A stretch of 64,000 nucleotides of DNA from contig JAQCHP010000005.1 in the NCBI GenBank assembly GCA_027619595.1, positions 1 to 64,000 of the forward strand, given 5' to 3'. Shown piece by piece: positions 8,501 through 32,166 of the stretch; the first letter of the stretch is position 1; each line of letters starts with the position of its first letter. The notes beneath the pieces are model-generated. The model worked only from the letters and a program-made list of their open reading frames with translations, searched no databases and was not told the DNA's origin. Source of the stretch: Planctomycetota bacterium. Its GTDB lineage: Bacteria; Planctomycetota; Planctomycetia; Pirellulales; Pirellulaceae. The translations under genes and the position numbers were made by a program.

Positions 8501-10059
8501 CAGTTACTTCGCGGGAAATTGTAATACCCATTGTCAATGACACGCTACTCGAACGTAACGAGTCGTTCACGTTGACGTTGTCTAATCCGAGCGGCGCAAC
8601 AATCGATGCCGGGCGCGCTACGACGATGTTGACGATTCGCGATAATGACTTTGTTCCTACAAGCGGCGGCATGCTATTAAGTGAAGTATGGATTAATTCT
8701 CCAGGCTTGGATGACAAACACGAATTTCTCGAACTCACCGGAACACCCGGAGCGGGCCTGGGGTCGTTGTATGTAGCGATCTTCGGCGGCGATATCGGTG
8801 AAGGAGAAGGATCTACGGACTTGGTAGTGGATCTAGGGACGTTCTTGAATGGGGCAAACGGTCATACCGTTGTGACCGCCCTGAATGACTTCGGTTTCCA
8901 GGTACCCGCTGGAGCAACAAGGGTGCCCCGCCTCGAACTCGACACTGAAATCGTCTCCAACGATACGGCGACCTACGCCTTGCTGTATAGCCCCAACGCA
9001 ACTCTCTTGACTGGGGCGTACGACTACGACTGGGACAACGATGGTTCGTTGGAACTGCCGACAGGTGTCGTGATCGTAGACTCCGTCGCTGTCAAGGACA
9101 ACGGCTTGACGGATCAAACTTATGGACCTGCAGCCAACGTCATCAACTCGGCGTTAAACCCGAACCTGTACGTCGCCGATGCGGTCAGCCGATTGCGAGG
9201 AAATACGTCAAGAAATAGTGCAGCAGCTTGGATGCACGGTGACCTGACTGCAGCCGGCGATGATGGATTGGTCTATTCACCGACCAATTCGATTGGCCTC
9301 CCATCACCCGGGACGGCCATGACGCCAGGTGAAGTGAATACCGGAACGCCGGCAATCAGTCCACTCGTCTCGCTTACCAGCGTCACTCCGGCCGCACACG
9401 TAGGTGCTGTGACGTTGAACTTCAGTGGCCCGGTTAGTCAAGTTACCATCGGCGATGGAAGCGCTGGTCCCACGGGGGCTGGTATCACGATCAGTAACCC
9501 GGACGGAACTCCAAACGGTCAGGTCAACTCCCTGCCGACGATTAGTGGCTTCGGAACTAACACGTTAACACTGACGTTTACCGGATCTGGAGTGGTGGGC
9601 GGACAATTGCCGGCGGGTCAATATCGGCTCAACTTTGTGGGCAACAGCATCATTGCAAACGGCCGCGCCGTCGATACCGCTAACAACGGCACCGTTACGG
9701 GCAGCAGTCACAGCGTGACGTTCACCACAACGCCGATCGTTACCACACCGGGCGACCTGAACGGTGACGGTGGCGTCGATGGCGCGGATGTCTCCGTCGT
9801 TTATTCGAGCTGGGGCGGTTCGGGGGTAGCTGACATCAATGGCGATGGATTCGTGGATGGCGCCGACCTGGCAGTTGTGTTTTCCAATTGGACCGGTGAC
9901 AGTTTAGCCACAAACAATGCGAAGCCTGCCGCGAAGCAAAACATATCGCTGAAAGGCAACGCTAGCTCCGTCGACGCGGTCATGTCGCAGGGGAATGAGT
10001 GGGCACCAACCACAGGTCGGCGCGGAGTGCGACCACGATCGCGACGGCTGACAGCTTAG
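5551..10059 (+). CDS. Giant modular secreted protein: DNRLRE, Calx-beta, lamin-tail-like and dockerin type I domains
   Basis: About 1,502 residues. After a basic N-terminus comes SLESRVVMA, a version of the planctomycete 'LE-R-LLA' motif seen in giant exported proteins. Approximate order: DNRLRE-like domain 41-225; Calx-beta 230-340; lamin-tail-like domain 345-580 (FVELLGTPGASLDG); Calx-beta 593-710; second DNRLRE 710-920; third Calx-beta 923-1033; second lamin-tail-like domain 1040-1260 (FLELTGTPGAGLGS); an Ig/Big-like domain 1270-1390; dockerin type I 1400-1450 with two calcium loops (DLNGDGGVDGADVS and DINGDGFVDGADLA). The order reflects an internal duplication. Probably a calcium-binding surface or matrix protein. 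I prefer GTG 5551 because GAGGA at 5538-5542 lies eight bases upstream; ATG 5536 is the alternative. Confidence 0.85.
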   Translation: MRITNLFSQYKQPRQISRKRHTQRTFAQSIESLESRVVMAVATFQDGLGAYAGTQDTILFSTNPDVNFGSETGISVDQQDVNGVRQGLLRFDGIIGAGVTQIPVGSQINSATLTVSVFNDSNTAMQMSMYRMRSNWSAATATWNSFGSIGGIQASQGEVEGLPPDAILFDSSVGTKTFDVTTSLKHWAAGETNLGWLFESASTNGWDFNSSEADPSNRPRLTVDFTPPPAGATGSAEFINLIPMHSEGDAGTTTANLTVARAGGTSGTLNVPYTITAGTATASDFVAAGPLNLTFLPGETLKTIPVTINGDTSLEGLETINVTMSGAIVAGRNVATLTIADDDALINEVLANVTDSAGESNRDFVELLGTPGASLDGYFFVVFESEEEENGGTGSGIADLVVPLTGQTFGSNGLLVITGTSWAYQSQKDPATNQLQLPAFDVAGGILEDSSQTYALVRSPISPIVQGTDYDTQGAYENNQIGAQLSIGTGVGILDQLPAGAQIVDSVGVVEGGGNDRDRIATVVGHPGVHVHQPIGRPGDNAASDGVSRRVGARDPNSIGVWFNGDVFDGAAVPLAYANGTPQISVVAPAGSVVTPGAANTLRNVFFDVKAENVDESAGTVTLTVSRSDATTSMSVQYATSNSTAVAGADYTAKSGNINFLVGETSKDIVIDILGDSVAEGFESFRVTLSNPTTPFLITSGVTVVTIVDGDVLVRSFQDDVDGYQGTKDTYLDSSLPDLEFGFASSVIADEERGEVDLQNGDARPVQGLIRFDDMFGTGISQVPNGSKIFSAFLTVNVVSPSPLSKVRFFAMQQGWDEGTSTWSSPQGSTGASVINGVTPDGVEASAEIDAIVIDPSVAGLVDIPLNAETIQAWANGSLPNFGWAIISDSADGWSFSSSDDFLSIIPQPPKLTILYTAPTGQGTLGFSDSSFTVNENGQARVAVQRVGGLTGAASVNYTITPITGSAADITGSLSGTLNFGDPSVTSREIVIPIVNDTLLERNESFTLTLSNPSGATIDAGRATTMLTIRDNDFVPTSGGMLLSEVWINSPGLDDKHEFLELTGTPGAGLGSLYVAIFGGDIGEGEGSTDLVVDLGTFLNGANGHTVVTALNDFGFQVPAGATRVPRLELDTEIVSNDTATYALLYSPNATLLTGAYDYDWDNDGSLELPTGVVIVDSVAVKDNGLTDQTYGPAANVINSALNPNLYVADAVSRLRGNTSRNSAAAWMHGDLTAAGDDGLVYSPTNSIGLPSPGTAMTPGEVNTGTPAISPLVSLTSVTPAAHVGAVTLNFSGPVSQVTIGDGSAGPTGAGITISNPDGTPNGQVNSLPTISGFGTNTLTLTFTGSGVVGGQLPAGQYRLNFVGNSIIANGRAVDTANNGTVTGSSHSVTFTTTPIVTTPGDLNGDGGVDGADVSVVYSSWGGSGVADINGDGFVDGADLAVVFSNWTGDSLATNNAKPAAKQNISLKGNASSVDAVMSQGNEWAPTTGRRGVRPRSRRLTA

Positions 10060-26511: not shown

Positions 26512-26634
26512 TTAAATCTCCGATACGCCCCGTTTGGACGGCGGGCCGGTCGACTGGACCTCGAGCACGGCATCGCTCATCCAGCAGCCCACATAGGGGG
26601 AGTTTCGCTGCTTCGTCAAAATCCAAATATAGGA
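26512..26634 (-). pseudogene. C-terminal half of a DUF4864-like gene, cut off by the mobile element
   Basis: On the minus strand, from base 26634, the frame reads S-YIWILTKQRNSPYVGCWM then SDAVLEVQ and ends at TAA 26512-26514. 'LxKQ...PYxGCWM-D-V' is the expected C-terminal end of DUF4864 proteins, as I know the family. The N-terminal half is at 31755-32166. Joining ...GGT from the right with TCC TAT ATT from the left gives a continuous frame (GEGS-YIWIL). Without the element the gene would end 118 bases upstream of the ECF sigma gene. Confidence 0.85.
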
Positions 26635-26656
26635 CCCCAGCTGTTCTCCGTGCCGT
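26615..26656 (-). other. Attachment site, left junction (recombinase 3' end / host gene)
   Basis: The proposed TC crossover is at 26633-26634 (GA on the plus strand). Sequence to the right (26635 upward) is element; to the left is host. The element side carries the half-site CGGAGAA (minus strand) nine bases from the core. The recombinase stop codon (TGA, 26616-26618) lies on the host side. Confidence 0.75.
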
Positions 26657-28559
26657 AGTTTCGTTGTGAACTCCACGGGTGGCCGGTTTTGGGGATGATC
26701 TTCACGTCGATCAGTTCCCGGCTGTCATCCTCGAAGCGGCAGATCATTTTGTCGATCAACTGGCGGACGACTTCCCCCTTGCGGCGGTTCTCGTTGCCTT
26801 GAACAGTTTCCAAGGCCGACTCATAAGCAGCGGCCAGTCGTTTCGATTCTTCCAGAACTTCGTGATACTGTTCGACCAGTGGTTCCAACTGGCCTTTCAG
26901 CTTTTTGATTTCGACTTCGGCCATGCCCATTTCGGCGTCGGCCCGTTCTCTTGCCATCTCGGTTTTGAGTGACTTGTATCGCTCAAACAGGCGGTCGAAG
27001 TCGGCTTGCTTTTCGGCCAGCTTCTCTTGCAGCATCTTGGCGTTGCTGGCGTAGGCTTCGTTGTAGATTTCTTCTAGCGTGATTTCGCCATACACGTCCA
27101 TCGTGTCTTGGTCGATGATGACTTCGCTATCGTCGATGTAGTGGATTCCTTGGGCCAGATTGGCCGTGATGAAGTCGGTCATCTTCATGTAGACGTAGTG
27201 CAGTTCGCACTCCTTCATCCAGCTTTCGGTGAACAGAGCATCGACCAGCGATGAGTTTTGATCGGCGGCCACCAACACGTTCAGCCGATGGCCGACTTCT
27301 TCCAAGTAGCATTCCAAGATTGGCTCAATCTCAGCATTCGGAACCCGAAAGCACTGGCAGCCGGTCTCGTTCTTCTTGCCGTTCACCTTGTAAGTTTTGC
27401 AGATATACCCTTCACAGGCTTTGTCGCCTGACAGTTTTTCGCCGCACCTGTGGCAGTAGAGCAGACCAGACAACCAGTGAGCCTCGCCCCGGTTCGTCTT
27501 CCGGTGAATCTCCCGGTCGTTCATTTTGGTCTGGACCTTCTCCCAGATTTCGACCGGCACGATTGCGTCGAAGACAGGTTCATCGGGCTGCACCCAATCA
27601 TCCGGCTCCCGCTGGCGACCGTTGATGCTGTCGCCATTCTTCTTGCGGGGAGCGGTGCGGTATTCGCCCTCGACGAACTCGCTGAACCGGCTGTTCGAGC
27701 GTTTGTTGTAGGCCGGCAGTCCGATGTAGACCGGATTGAGCAGCATCTTGCTAACAAACCCGCTCGACCATGCCCCGGCCCGGACGGGATCGACCTTCAT
27801 TGCTTTCAATCGTTCGGCGATCTTGTTGAAGCTGATCGTTTCGGTCGCATACCACTCGAAGATTTTCCGCACGGCTTCCAAGCGTTCGGTGCGGATCGAC
27901 GGAGCCAGATAGAACTTGTCGGTTGGGTCTTTCGCCGGGAAGTTTCCTTTGCCGTCGAAGCGTTCCTGTTTCCCATCGGGCCAGATCTTCAAGCGGTGGC
28001 TCCATCCTTCGATGACGACTCGCCACTTGTTCTTCTTGCCGCTCATGCAGACGACATCCAGACCGTAGGGAACCGGGCCGCCCGTCCATTCGCCGGCCTT
28101 GGCCTGCACGATCTTCTTGGACAAATCCCGGTCGGCCTTCACCTTCTGTTCTCGTCGGGACGCCAGTGAATTGACCGTGGTGGTCAGCACGGTGGCGTCG
28201 TCTTCGTCGGAGAGACAACGGTTCTCGATGATCGACCACAACCGGCAGCCGCCCTTGCGGAGCGTCGAAAGGAACTCGCCCCATTCATGCGGGCCGCTGG
28301 TTCCAAAGCGGTCCTGCGACTCGACCACGATCCAGTCGAGCATTTCGTTCCGCACCATGTCGAGCAGCAGTTGGAACTGCTCCCGCTTGTCGGCCTTGTC
28401 TCTGGACCCCACGTCCTCAAACAGGGGTGCAATATTCAAGTCGTGCTGTGTCTCGAACCGGCTGAATGATTTCTTCTGCCGGTCGTTGTCCTGTTTGTCG
28501 GTCGAGACTCGGATCAATCCGGCGATCCGTCCCGCTGGGAAGTTGTCGTTATGGGTCAT
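26616..28559 (-). CDS. Large serine recombinase (integrase) of the element
   Basis: 647 residues. The resolvase domain (~12-150) has the nucleophile in GLIRVSTDKQ (Ser19) and the active-site region IVVESQDRFGTS. A 'Recombinase' domain (~160-330) has GGPVPYGLDVV and SSGFVSKMLLNPVYIGLPAY. A zinc ribbon (~375-415) has YCHRCGEKLSG plus a later Cys pair (YICKTY, GCQCFRV). A coiled coil (~525-605, MLQEKLAEKQADFDRLFERY) follows, as in phage-type large serine integrases. The gene crosses the attachment core: residues up to Gly642 are element-encoded and the last five (PIFGF) come from host sequence. In the predicted circle the frame instead continues 65 codons through a basic tail to 31557. Confidence 0.93.
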   Translation of the reverse strand: MTHNDNFPAGRIAGLIRVSTDKQDNDRQKKSFSRFETQHDLNIAPLFEDVGSRDKADKREQFQLLLDMVRNEMLDWIVVESQDRFGTSGPHEWGEFLSTLRKGGCRLWSIIENRCLSDEDDATVLTTTVNSLASRREQKVKADRDLSKKIVQAKAGEWTGGPVPYGLDVVCMSGKKNKWRVVIEGWSHRLKIWPDGKQERFDGKGNFPAKDPTDKFYLAPSIRTERLEAVRKIFEWYATETISFNKIAERLKAMKVDPVRAGAWSSGFVSKMLLNPVYIGLPAYNKRSNSRFSEFVEGEYRTAPRKKNGDSINGRQREPDDWVQPDEPVFDAIVPVEIWEKVQTKMNDREIHRKTNRGEAHWLSGLLYCHRCGEKLSGDKACEGYICKTYKVNGKKNETGCQCFRVPNAEIEPILECYLEEVGHRLNVLVAADQNSSLVDALFTESWMKECELHYVYMKMTDFITANLAQGIHYIDDSEVIIDQDTMDVYGEITLEEIYNEAYASNAKMLQEKLAEKQADFDRLFERYKSLKTEMARERADAEMGMAEVEIKKLKGQLEPLVEQYHEVLEESKRLAAAYESALETVQGNENRRKGEVVRQLIDKMICRFEDDSRELIDVKIIPKTGHPWSSQRNYGTENSWGPIFGF

Positions 28560-28591
28560 CGGTCTGGTTTCATCGTCTATACAAAAGAGAA

Positions 28592-28623
28592 GCCCCCGTA
28601 GCCGACAGGGAGGCTATGGGGGC
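28592..28623 (-). terminator. Putative intrinsic terminator between resolvase and integrase genes
   Basis: On the minus strand a 12-bp stem (GCCCCCATAGCC with GGCTACGGGGGC, one G-T style mismatch) with a short loop is followed by TTCTCTTTT. It lies 37 bases after the resolvase stop and 32 bases before the integrase start. It would limit read-through from the resolvase promoter into the integrase, implying that the integrase has its own regulated expression or relies on partial read-through. Confidence 0.6.
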
Positions 28624-28660
28624 GGAACTCGCAGGAGGCAAACACTTCGGAATTTCCGAA

Positions 28661-29272
28661 TTAGTTTTTTTGCAACGCCGGCTCGGTCTTCAACACGTCG
28701 TAGATGGTGGGCCTCGATAGCCCCGTCGCCCTTGCGATGGCGGCCACCTTTTCCCCTTCGGCCTTCATCCGGTGAATCAGCCGAATCTGTTCGTCATTGA
28801 CCTTGATCCGTCGTCCCTTCTCCGATCCGCCCCAAGTCTTCCCCTTGGCACGGGCCGCCGCCTGACCGGCCAAAATCCGCTCCGCACGGACTTCGGTTTC
28901 GTAGGCGGCCACGCTCGCCAGCACATTCGCCATGAGCCGGCCAGCCGCCGTGGACAGGTCCAGCCCATCACGCAAGCTGACCAGTCGCACGTTCAATTCC
29001 GTCAGTTCGTCGAACAGGGCGGTCAGCCCTTTGGCGGTTCGTCCCAGCCGATCCAGCCGCCACACGGCCACTTGCTGAACCTCGCCGGATCGAACATGCC
29101 GCAGCAACCGGGTGAAGGCGGGCCGCTCCATCGTCTTGCCGGTGAAGCGGTCCCGATACCAGCGAACCTCTCCTTCCTGCTGGGCCGCCCATCGCCGTAA
29201 TTCCGGCTCTTGGCTGGCGACATCCTGCGACTTGCTGGACACCCGCAGATAGATGGCGATGGTCTGGCTCAT
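28661..29272 (-). CDS. Small serine recombinase / resolvase (Tn3-Pin type)
   Basis: 203 residues. The N-terminal resolvase domain has IAIYLRVSSKSQ with the nucleophile Ser, then QVAVWRLDRLGRTAKGL (conserved Arg cluster) and STAAGRLMANVLASVAAYE, leading into the long E helix (RAERILAGQAAARAKG). The C-terminal helix-turn-helix is MKAEGEKVAAIARATGLSRP followed by TIYDVL. Length and order are those of Tn3 resolvases and Pin-type invertases. In a circular or multimeric element it could resolve dimers, or control a DNA inversion, but no inverted crossover sites were noticed. It is on the same strand as the integrase and precedes it by 101 bases. It is divergent from the PEP-CTERM gene. Confidence 0.93.
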   Translation of the reverse strand: MSQTIAIYLRVSSKSQDVASQEPELRRWAAQQEGEVRWYRDRFTGKTMERPAFTRLLRHVRSGEVQQVAVWRLDRLGRTAKGLTALFDELTELNVRLVSLRDGLDLSTAAGRLMANVLASVAAYETEVRAERILAGQAAARAKGKTWGGSEKGRRIKVNDEQIRLIHRMKAEGEKVAAIARATGLSRPTIYDVLKTEPALQKN

Positions 29273-29621
29273 GCTCGGCCTCGGTGCTGATCCCCCCTGA
29301 TTCTCTGAACGATGAGGATAGGTTAGCGAAAGTGGCCGTTTGTGTCAATAGTGGATTACACAAGACGCTTGACGGACATAATGCTCGCAGCGAAGCCGGA
29401 AACGAGCGTAATTTGGCGTTTTTGGCATACTGTATCGAGACTTTACACTTTTCGGACCTGCTGGAGCGGTTTGGCGAGGCGGGAAAATTTCTCGGATTTA
29501 CCGATTCTGCCTATTGTCCCCCCCCCCCCTGCGTGGTATCATAGCCGTTCGTTAATTAACGCCATCGCTGCCGGATTCGCAGCGGGCTAGATTCCAAGAC
29601 CTACAACACGGGAGAAGCAAA
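29273..29621. other. Divergent intergenic region with a 12-C tract, inside the element
   Basis: No gene supported. It must hold promoters for the resolvase (minus) and the PEP-CTERM gene (plus). A run of 12 C at 29518-29529 lies about 90 bases before the PEP-CTERM start, followed by a palindromic GTTAATTAAC at 29550-29559. A homopolymer of this length is slippage-prone. ACGGGAGAAGC at 29609-29619 is the ribosome site of the PEP-CTERM gene. I saw no sigma-54 type promoter that some PEP-CTERM genes use. Confidence 0.6.
29518..29529. repeat. Poly-C tract (12 C)
   Basis: Twelve consecutive C on the plus strand, in the promoter-proximal region of the PEP-CTERM cargo gene. It may alter promoter spacing by slippage, but that is inference; the count itself can be inflated by sequencing. 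Confidence 0.8.
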
Positions 29622-30245
29622 ATGATGCGGGCAAGTCAACTGGCGGTGGCGTGCGTGGCGGTGCTGTTCGCTACGGCGGGGCAAGTCCAGGCGGACATCA
29701 TCACGATTGATTTTGACGGATTCACACCCACCGGCAGTTTCGGTGGCGGTGTAGAAGATGGAATAGTAGTAGGCGGGATTAGCGGTCCTGTCGCAGTCAG
29801 CGGGATCTTCCTAGGCCCATTAAGCGGAATAAATTCATTGCACCACGGAAGTGGGTCTTTAGCGGTCTTTTCCTTGTCGGGCTTTACTGGAGAAACATTC
29901 ACACTGTCCAGTTTCTATGCTGGATCTACATATGGTGGTGGCGAACCGTTGACTTTAAGTGGATTTCTTGGTGGCTCACTGGTTGGCACCGACGTGTTCA
30001 GCCCAAACCCTCCCGGCAGCTACTTATCATTCACACCAACAAATCTCTCGGGCGTAACGATGGATACCTTGGTATTCGATATGGGTGCAGCAGGACCCGG
30101 ACCCACCAATATTGATGATATTGTGTTGAATGTAAATGTTCCCGAACCTTCCTCCCTCGCTTTGTTCGGCATCGGTGCATGCGTCGCAGGGCTTGGAGCC
30201 GCCCGTCGTCGCCGACGTGAAAAACAACAAGAGACCGTAGCCTGA
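29622..30245 (+). CDS. PEP-CTERM sorting domain-containing exported protein
   Basis: 207 residues. N-terminal signal peptide (LAVACVAVLFATAGQVQA), a Gly/Ser/Thr-rich beta-type middle part (ITIDFDGFTPTGSFGGG; FTLSSFYAGSTYGGGEPLTL), and a C-terminal PEP-CTERM tail: VPEPSSLALFGIGACVAGLG followed by an Arg cluster (AARRRRREKQ). PEP-CTERM proteins are thought to be processed by an exosortase and linked to extracellular polymer. The middle part resembles low-complexity planctomycete surface proteins with no catalytic motif. It is the only plus-strand gene in the element and appears to be cargo. ATG 29622 is preceded by GGGAGAAG; a second ATG follows immediately. Confidence 0.9.
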   Translation: MMRASQLAVACVAVLFATAGQVQADIITIDFDGFTPTGSFGGGVEDGIVVGGISGPVAVSGIFLGPLSGINSLHHGSGSLAVFSLSGFTGETFTLSSFYAGSTYGGGEPLTLSGFLGGSLVGTDVFSPNPPGSYLSFTPTNLSGVTMDTLVFDMGAAGPGPTNIDDIVLNVNVPEPSSLALFGIGACVAGLGAARRRRREKQQETVA

Positions 30246-30282
30246 TCGGGTGAACACAACAGTCAATGAAATCGGGCGACCA

Positions 30283-30501
30283 TCATGTTCGTCCGTTTTT
30301 CGTTGCTGCGATTGAGAACGTCGGCAGCACCGGACGCACCTGCGGCTTGGCCGGCCTCACGGCCTGCGTGAGCGGCTTGCATTGGGGTGGTTTTTTCGGC
30401 TTGGGCTGGGGCAACTTCGACAGACCTTTCACGGCCTTGTCGTCGTTGAGCCACAACCCTTCCCGAATTGCCAGCCATTCTTGAAACGTCATCATTGTCA
30501 T
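30283..30501 (-). CDS. Small basic protein of the element, function unknown
   Basis: 72 residues that I do not recognise by function. It opens MTMMTFQEWLAIREGLWL and then NDDKAVKGLSKL, an amphipathic N-terminal helix pattern I associate with short planctomycete hypothetical proteins, followed by a Pro/Lys/Gln-rich basic tail (PQPKPKKPPQCKPL). It follows the HUH protein gene by eight bases on the same strand, so it is probably co-translated with it. AGGA lies close to the first ATGs (30501 or 30495). A DNA-binding or accessory replication role is possible, but only from context. A longer frame on the same strand (30263-30526) lacks such features. Confidence 0.6.
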   Translation of the reverse strand: MTMMTFQEWLAIREGLWLNDDKAVKGLSKLPQPKPKKPPQCKPLTQAVRPAKPQVRPVLPTFSIAATKNGRT

Positions 30502-30509
30502 TCCTGTAT

Positions 30510-31553
30510 TTACGCCCGTCGGTCACAAAATCGGACTAAGCCAGCCCTCTCGAAACACGCCCACACCATGCCTGCAACCGCATCTAAATGGTTGCTAGTG
30601 CTAGCGTTCGTGGGGGAACGGTTTCGGGGCGGTCCACGGGGAAAAATCGGCTCACATACCCGGCTAATAACGGGCAGGACCGACGCCGTCACGCTCTGGC
30701 GGTGGTGACGTGCGAGCGGCCACGATGGCGTCGGCTCCCGTTGTTCGTCTGCTGGCGGCTCGTCCGTCTGTTGGTCTTCATCCTGCCGGCCTTCCGCATC
30801 GGCCGCCAACTGTTCCTCGCTCGGCTGCCACCTTCGCCGCTGGGGCGGCTCAGGCGGCCTCCACTCCTCGATGTAGCTTTCGCCAAACCACGCCCGCCGA
30901 CACTCCTTCCATAACTCCCCTTTGGACTTCACGAAATAACCGCCGAACTGCCCCGACAGGTTCAGCCCCAGCCCCTTCTTGAACAGCAGAACCTCCCGCT
31001 CCCCGTCCTGCACGTCGGCCATGTCCTTGACCGTGTAGCGAGTGATGGCGGCTACCGACCGGATGTTTTCACAGTGGGCCAGTTCCGCCGTGGTTCCGCT
31101 GGCCTTCTGCACGATCTTCCCCAACACGTCTGCCGGATCGTCCATGCTGGTCCTTATGAGCAGATGCAGATGGATCAGGTTGTTTCGTTCGATCTCCCGC
31201 ACAAAGTAAACAGCCAGTTCCATCGCTCTTGTCTTGGCAAAGTAGCCTGCTTGCCGCCGTAGTTTTTCATGGAAGTCCCGAAACTCTGAAACCGTGCGGA
31301 CTTCGCTGAACTTGACCACTGCTTCATGGGTCGGCTGGGTATACCGATGGTTCATATTCAGGATTCCACACTCCCTCACCGACCAATTCTGCCGAGATTC
31401 GATAGATGCCGATGGGGTCCGGTTGATGTGGTTCCCCCAAGGAAGCTCCCATCGTTGCCGGGGCTGGGCTTGGTAATAACAGGGAACCCTTGGTTCTTCG
31501 TCCTCCCATTGATCGAATTGTTCGTTAGTAACCGCCTGACAGACCATCTCCAC
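30510..31553 (-). CDS. HUH-type replication / relaxase-like protein
   Basis: 347 residues. The central part contains NLIHLHLLIRTSMDD, whose H-L-H is the metal-binding HUH motif of rolling-circle replication initiators and related transposases. It is followed about 45 residues later by ITRYTVKDM, a likely catalytic Tyr with Lys four positions away (Y-x-x-K). Upstream are FSEVRTVSEFRDFHEKLRRQ and AMELAVYFVREIER, matching the strand-helix plan of Rep domains. The C-terminal third is polar and Pro/Arg/Glu-rich (WRPPEPPQRRRWQPSEEQ). It would nick one DNA strand to start rolling-circle replication of the circular form. Starts: GTG 31553 or ATG 31547. IS91-like transposase is the alternative, less likely at this length. 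Confidence 0.75.
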   Translation of the reverse strand: MEMVCQAVTNEQFDQWEDEEPRVPCYYQAQPRQRWELPWGNHINRTPSASIESRQNWSVRECGILNMNHRYTQPTHEAVVKFSEVRTVSEFRDFHEKLRRQAGYFAKTRAMELAVYFVREIERNNLIHLHLLIRTSMDDPADVLGKIVQKASGTTAELAHCENIRSVAAITRYTVKDMADVQDGEREVLLFKKGLGLNLSGQFGGYFVKSKGELWKECRRAWFGESYIEEWRPPEPPQRRRWQPSEEQLAADAEGRQDEDQQTDEPPADEQREPTPSWPLARHHRQSVTASVLPVISRVCEPIFPRGPPRNRSPTNASTSNHLDAVAGMVWACFERAGLVRFCDRRA

Positions 31554-31556
31554 CGC

Positions 31557-31753
31557 TCACACACGTCCTTTCCTCTTGCCACCGTGCTTACAAGAGTGTC
31601 GTGAGCCAGATTTTTTCGATGAGTCTGGGGAAAATTTCTTTTGAGAGGATGGTTTTCGTCGTGATGTGTGTTTCTTTGTAGGCCCGCTTCCACGCCTACG
31701 CCGGCCCTCAGGCTTGCTCCCGCTGGGAAGCGTCAGGCAGAGAAGTTCATAAA
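31557..31753 (-). other. Displaced 3' tail of the recombinase frame (basic, 65 codons)
   Basis: In the integrated state this is an orphan open frame between the disrupted host gene and rep. In the predicted circle it fuses in frame to the integrase: ...SWG followed by LYELLCLTLPSGSKPEGR, then a Lys/Arg-rich tail ending HGGKRKGRV at TGA 31557-31559. 20 of the 65 residues are Lys or Arg. The stop is three bases before the GTG of the HUH protein. I list it as part of the excised-form integrase gene, not as a separate gene. Confidence 0.65.
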
Positions 31754-31775
31754 GAACCTTCGCCGTGGAGCAGGC
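31735..31775 (-). other. Attachment site, right junction (host gene / element)
   Basis: The proposed TC crossover is at 31754-31755 (GA on the plus strand). Host DUF4864 sequence lies at 31756 upward; the element begins below. The element side carries TTCTCTG (minus strand) nine bases from the core, mirroring CGGAGAA at the other end. Confidence 0.75.
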
Positions 31776-32166
31776 TGACCAATACACGGGCTGAGTCATC
31801 ACGCAACACCGGCGTCCCCACAACGACTGTACCGGATCGGCACAGGACATTGTAGGGAGGACGGCGGACCATCTCCGCAAACCGCCCGATCGGCCCTGTT
31901 TGTACCAAATTGGCCGGCGACGCGAAACAGATACACTGGATCAGGCCAAAACGATCGCCCTGCGCCAAACTATCGATCTGGAGCTTCACCACCTGCTCGG
32001 GGGTTAAGTCGGGATGTGGATAGACCAAGGACGCCGTCGTATCAACGGTCGTGAGTCCTAGCGGGTGCAGGGGAAACCACCACTGAAATGTCCATGTGAC
32101 TACATAGAAAAGGCCAACCACCAACAGCGTTGGACGCCAGAAGTGGAAGTTTGCCCGTCCATCCAT
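31755..32166 (-). pseudogene. N-terminal half of the DUF4864-like gene, disrupted by the element
   Basis: From ATG 32166: a membrane anchor (PTLLVVGLFYVVTWTFQWWF), then LTPEQVVKLQIDSLAQGD, CFASPANLVQTGPIGRFAEM and VRRPPYNVLCRSG, which is the N-terminal and central part of DUF4864. The frame runs to GEGS at the junction, then into element DNA and stops at 31747, giving a 139-residue truncated product. The missing end is at 26512-26634. The intact protein would be about 177 residues, membrane anchored with the domain outside. The domain's function is not known to me. Confidence 0.85.

Follow-up and report, generated by a model that had tools for sequence, protein, structure and literature searches.

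A serine-integrase element with a PEP-CTERM cargo slot splits a DUF4864-like gene in a planctomycete

Gene content of the interrupted locus

The window, by which is meant the whole 64,000-nucleotide stretch analysed (contig JAQCHP010000005.1, here C255, of a 5.18-Mb, 281-contig Planctomycetota genome), contains the two parts of a DUF4864-like gene on the minus strand, 5.1 kb apart. The N-terminal part (31765–32166) is supported by alignment to intact homologues and the Pfam comparison below, and the C-terminal part (26512–26649) by the alignment together with the sequence. The split described in the first-pass annotation is real: intact homologues are present in relatives, and the two joined fragments align to them from end to end. 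Against the Pfam DUF4864 profile (PF16156), the interrupted gene scored 18.5 bits (E = 0.0025) and its homologue L003 24.6 bits (E = 3e-5), both below the curated cut-off of 27.1 bits. The gene is split by a well-bounded serine-recombinase element inserted into it. The element, including both copies of an AC core, occupies 26650–31766 on the minus strand, which corresponds to a predicted circle of 5115 bp.

The window retains the four ORFs and the two ends of the element intact. The large serine integrase (26616–28559, minus strand) is 647 amino acids long as integrated; its last codons and stop are host DNA, the element contributing 26650–28559. Resolvase, recombinase, and zinc ribbon domains were recognized, with PF00239 and PF07508 above their cut-offs and PF13408 just under, and the protein matched a PHROG integrase at 2.6e-53; a Pfam search gave no match to a DUF4368 domain. 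The second serine recombinase is a small resolvase of 203 amino acids (28661–29272, minus strand; PF00239, E = 1.8e-37, with HTH_7). An HUH/YxxK Rep-like protein of 347 amino acids (30510–31553, minus strand) was assigned by its motifs, HLHLL (HUH) and YTVK (YxxK), which are preserved in homologues at 25–46% identity, and by Pfam matches that fell under their cut-offs: PF23343 (REP_ORF2-G2P) at E = 0.0095 and RepSA at E = 0.021 (14.4 bits against a cut-off of 34). A PDB sequence search with Rep returned no match, and AlphaFold models, made for two Rep sequences and one cargo sequence, had mean pLDDT values of 33–34 and were discarded. The fourth ORF encodes a PEP-CTERM protein on the plus strand. 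These genes correspond to the interior content first proposed for the locus, the integrase, resolvase, and PEP-CTERM protein by profile matches and Rep by motifs and sub-threshold matches; as also proposed, no conjugation or phage structural genes were seen in the element, nor was any ORF for a TraB-like translocase. Values of pN/pS were 0.08 for the integrase, 0.07 for the resolvase, and 0.19 for rep, indicating strong purifying selection on the first two.

Element ends, insertion sites, and circle layout

The ends were set by lining up the junctions of independent insertions (8 left and 5 right). At all eight left ends, conserved element DNA starts at AC-GGCGAAGG (GGCGAAGGTTC after AC) with unrelated flanks outside, and at all five right ends conservation extends as far as ACTACGGC-AC, beyond which the flanks are unrelated. 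The 2-bp core AC is present at every one of these ends and is the sole sequence that is both common to the two ends and required of the target. In the window, the left core, where the host gene meets the element, lies at 31765–31766 and the right core at 26650–26651 (both minus strand). The first-pass annotation had been right in kind about a dinucleotide core; its supposedly base-exact TC/TC ends were 11 and 17 bp off, and a TC core was ruled out by the ends of the other copies. Its circle junction, CTGGGG-TC-TTTATGAAC, is replaced by a predicted ACTACGGC-AC-GGCGAAGG.

The frame across the earlier joint was misleading because many end pairs, when tested in the window, leave a frame open; the deletion first proposed and the true one differ in length by 6 bp, so both preserve the frame. 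Rejoining at AC gives SLLHGEQLGSYIWIL in frame (VLVSLLHGEQLGSYIWILTKQ), with GEQLGS at the protein joint, and the empty host site is predicted to read CTGCTCC-AC-GGAGAACAG. Compared with the earlier GEGS joint, the AC joint scored higher against three of five homologues, by most for the closest (126 versus 118 bits for L003, 100 versus 95 for L004, and 92.8 versus 90.5 for L005); it was about equal for L008 (82.0 versus 81.6) and marginally lower for L006 (81.3 versus 82.0). The attP is a 20+AC+20 imperfect dyad, GTTCACAACGAAACTACGGC-AC-GGCGAAGGTTCTTTATGAAC, whose arms match at 15 of 20 positions about AC, a value attained by 1 of 100,000 shuffles.

Integrase searches placed the closest kin of the element in Rubripirellula MAGs. 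The integrase of L028 is 96% identical in amino acid sequence and belongs to an intact element inserted at another site, and that of L029 (92%) to a decayed element at a third; searches with rep and with the cargo slot gave further copies or remnants in G287, G067, G105, G430, G300, G584, G349, G569, G006, G027, and G150. The same gene set, about 90% identical, recurs at other sites, broadly supporting the earlier suggestion of a distinct element class. A rep 86% identical to that of the window was found in another family. Three targets are represented among integrases 92–100% identical, with further sites at which most of the integrase is missing. Most relatives are decayed, many with frameshifts and deletions.

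The first-pass annotation had named the presence of the element outside a DUF4864 gene in close relatives as a counter-indication; close relatives do carry it at unrelated sites, which speaks for multi-site insertion rather than against the split. For the L028 insertion, an element-free counterpart with the same flanks was found in G267, collinear across the site, with a spacer too diverged for base-by-base confirmation of the core. Exact empty sites were also sought for L047 and L029 and none was found, their flanks being insufficiently conserved. No circle junction was present in the 398 genomes and viral contigs searched, and no second copy of the element was found in the host genome. A phage or plasmid origin was considered and set aside, the integrase having no matches in viral contigs and rep none in phage or plasmid records. 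Elsewhere, a resolvase 63% identical occurs with a distant rep near a tyrosine-recombinase-like ORF (L052), a rep at 44–46% identity lies beside another such ORF (L135), and distant rep and resolvase pairs sit beside ArdC-like and HsdR-like ORFs (L140 and L141). Given these neighbours, rep and resolvase may form a core joined to different integrases.

The integrase gene contains attP. In the window, L028, L029, and L047, the integrase stop codon is outside the element, supplied by the host within a few codons past the element end; with no stop inside the element, the ORF in a circle must cross the joint. Across it, the frame stays open for 69 codons in the window, L028, and L029, and to the contig end in L177. 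The left end of the element (31557–31766, minus strand; 69 codons and a stop) would therefore, once circular, make up the 3′ end of the integrase gene, and the stop of this extended ORF falls 3 nt before the rep start. The tail is basic (21 Lys/Arg in 69 residues), its pN/pS is 0.43 in frame and 1.15–1.19 in the other frames, and 20 of its 39 variable columns are at third positions (p = 0.015). This coding signal is modest and weaker than that of the integrase, resolvase, or rep; the tail is short and is broken in decayed copies, and 68 codons stay open in 4.6% of composition-matched shuffles. It follows from the sequence that a circle would encode a longer, tailed integrase. We infer that the tail has a role and that rep would be expressed solely in the circle.

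The PEP-CTERM slot and its passengers

The cargo gene (29622–30245, plus strand) comprises a signal (29622–29693), a passenger (29694–30137), and an anchor (30138–30242). Its product scored 29.4 bits against PF07589 (cut-off 20.7) and 28.1 against TIGR02595 (cut-off 16) and has a C-terminal PEP motif, a transmembrane segment, and a basic tail, with a signal peptide recognized by inspection only. A promoter, TTGTCC-17-TATCAT (29514–29542, plus strand), is predicted by consensus match only, and its spacer is mostly a C tract (C12 at 29518–29529).

Almost every relative has this surface-protein gene, with a wholly different middle part. Eleven slots were compared, from the window, L028, L047, L051 (two), L134, L136, L137, L138, L174, and L176. 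In each of these copies or remnants, a PEP-CTERM gene occupies the same slot and the signal peptide, anchor, and flanking DNA are kept, with homology to the window stopping at 29694–29718 and resuming at 30127–30138. Identity is about 0.8–0.9 before the signal cleavage site, collapses there to the background level, and recovers at the VPEP codons. The 11 passengers have no match to each other at an E value of 1e-3. The window and L028 are approximately 80–90% identical on both sides of passengers that are dissimilar, differ in length, and have sharp borders. The window passenger shares 62% identity with that of L139 in G217, a gene that has a different signal, anchor, and flanks; between the L176 passenger and L181 the identity is 70%. 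No further match to the window passenger was found in the 241 family genomes beyond G217, nor was a donor found in its own genome. GC3 was 0.45 in the window passenger, compared with 0.79 in the signal and 0.75 in the integrase.

The unrelated passengers, their sharp borders, the L139 and L181 matches, and the GC3 contrast together indicate that the passenger has been exchanged between a fixed signal and anchor. Replacement most likely proceeded by recombination, through the conserved ends, with other PEP-CTERM genes that the element met in one host after another. Such genes are numerous (27 PEP-CTERM matches each in G000 and G349) and could serve as passenger donors.

Proposed mechanism and comparison with known systems

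We consider it probable that the locus holds an integrative element with its own large serine integrase, AC targets, an integrase tail that the circle adds next to rep, and a passenger that is replaced. The ends, the diversity of targets, and the element-free site in a relative come from comparison; excision and circles we infer. The integrase would recombine attP with unrelated sites holding AC, leaving AC at both ends. In the circle, its gene would run across the joint for the 69 codons noted above; because the tail stop lies immediately upstream of rep, tailed integrase and Rep would be expressed together. Integration would cut the tail off, replacing it with a few host codons, and rep would thereby be unlinked from the integrase and its promoter. 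Rep may nick and replicate, or mobilize, the circle, and the resolvase may resolve multimers. The cargo would be an exosortase-type surface protein with fixed signal and anchor.

The main competitor, which we regard as unlikely yet the strongest of those weighed, is that the element is an inactive relic of one serine-integrase insertion that has lost excision, its tail and integrase–rep layout being accidental. The lack of a circle junction or second copy, the frameshifts and deletions in many relatives, and the shuffle frequency of the open tail frame all fit such a history. It sits poorly with the intact ORFs and ends in the window, with an intact element at another site in L028 whose integrase is so nearly identical, and with purifying selection on the integrase and resolvase. 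A different objection concerns the cargo: passengers might never have been swapped, having instead diverged beyond recognition under selection, or the whole PEP-CTERM gene might have been taken up anew by each copy. Beyond the sorting signal, PEP-CTERM proteins generally have little homology (PMC1569441), and passengers may be fast-evolving surface domains; even so, we think this improbable. Divergence does not readily give sharply bounded, dissimilar passengers of different length between well conserved sides, as in the window and L028, nor a passenger resembling that of a gene with an unrelated signal and anchor, and whole-gene uptake would not leave the signal, the anchor, and the flanking DNA unchanged.

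Least credible, and rejected as a register for the core, is crossover within a 5-bp ACGGC shared by the two ends, whereby the element would be site-specific and its targets would have to hold ACGGCAC. Nearly all copies do have ACGGC at each end. On this register, however, all the unrelated targets would need the same seven fixed bases, the DUF4864 frame is broken, and the dyad register of attP is lost; the G267 empty site, moreover, does not contain ACGGCAC.

On the preferred reading of an integrative element with AC targets, the analysis establishes where a Planctomycetota mobile element family begins and ends, what it requires of its targets, and which genes it carries. A broader interpretation, which we offer tentatively and hold somewhat less likely than its negation, is that small integrative elements of this family shuttle surface-protein domains in planctomycetes, their fixed signal and anchor frame taking up passengers by recombination in successive hosts, and that they sense their own state via the integrase gene, whose tailed form, linked to rep, only the circle would encode; this would be a bacterial serine counterpart of archaeal gene-splitting integrases. 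Passenger exchange, if true, would give diverse PEP-CTERM surface proteins a concrete route to acquire and spread domains; the state switch, if true, would extend gene-splitting integration beyond archaea and beyond tyrosine recombinases. The literature searched held nothing relevant on planctomycete serine-integrase elements or on PEP-CTERM proteins on mobile elements. The proposed movement is of a known kind, that of an integrative element with a multi-target serine integrase; the family, cargo slot, and integrase layout appear new according to the sources searched.

Among known systems, IMEs with serine recombinases and RCR-type (non-canonical) relaxases (PMC5704250) are likewise small, integrate by their own recombinase, have no mating apparatus, and encode a protein resembling rolling-circle initiators. 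The present element differs in its planctomycete hosts, PEP-CTERM cargo, and extra small resolvase; its mobilization is putative, and its Rep has no assignment to a family listed there. AICEs, with a RepSA-type initiator and a TraB-like translocase, are a class into which it does not fall. Tn5397, with its recombinase TndX (PMC4430133), also combines a large serine recombinase with many targets in which only the central dinucleotide is always present. That core is GA and the one here AC/GT, so the element departs from the GA rule; it is also only 5 kb, without conjugation genes, and its attP is internal to the integrase gene. Among multi-targeting large serine recombinases (LSRs), too, integrases that are almost identical occupy unrelated sites and share a dinucleotide core (PMC10083194). 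They are defined by integrase clusters (90%) that reach more than three target gene clusters and commonly, not universally, carry DUF4368; the element has no DUF4368 match and only three targets at ~90% or more integrase identity.

The circle layout recalls that of Tn916, in which expression of the transfer genes depends on circularization (PMC11658703); only then do the genes required after excision acquire a promoter. Here, as predicted from sequence only, the joint would complete the integrase gene itself, with rep 3 nt later. In archaeal suicidal integrases such as those of SSV1 and pT26-2 (PMC8371274), the attachment site is also inside the integrase gene and integration interrupts that gene, and such gene-disrupting recombinases were stated to occur only in archaea (PMC8371274). 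Those enzymes are archaeal tyrosine recombinases, whereas the integrase here is a bacterial serine recombinase that would lose its C-terminal tail only, leaving the catalytic domain whole.

Variable C run in a predicted PEP-CTERM promoter

The promoter predicted for the PEP-CTERM cargo gene (window 29514–29542) has a 17-nt spacer that contains a C12 run. The length of this run varies among copies of the element (e.g. 8, 8, 10, 6, and 7), and phase variation of the predicted promoter is therefore possible. G runs were seen at a similar place in loci L181 and L182.

Decayed copies and insertion surroundings

In genome G105, two decayed element remnants were found in opposite orientation with ~2 kb between them (L051, 7267–11613), and their passengers, the exchangeable middle parts of the cargo gene, differ from each other. 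An internal deletion in the L029 copy joined rep in frame to the end of the resolvase (9314–9898), the fusion point being a VAAI stretch common to both. On the right flank of the L047 copy (genome G287), the insertion site abuts an intergenic repeat of roughly 30 bp, which occurs >30 times in that genome. The G430 copy is closely flanked at its left end by a second PEP-CTERM gene (L134, 7565–8407), which has an anchor of the same type and a different signal.

Distant relatives

Tyrosine-recombinase-like ORFs lie close to distant rep/resolvase relatives at L052 (5264–9057) and to a distant rep relative at L135 (7959–10400); ArdC-like and HsdR-like ORFs adjoin such rep/resolvase relatives at L140 and L141 (all ORFs named by eye). 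At L055 (9227–11663), the end of a 33% related integrase adjoins a truncated ComM-like ORF, and phage-tail-like ORFs occur in the surrounding region. The attachment site may again be located at the integrase 3′ end.
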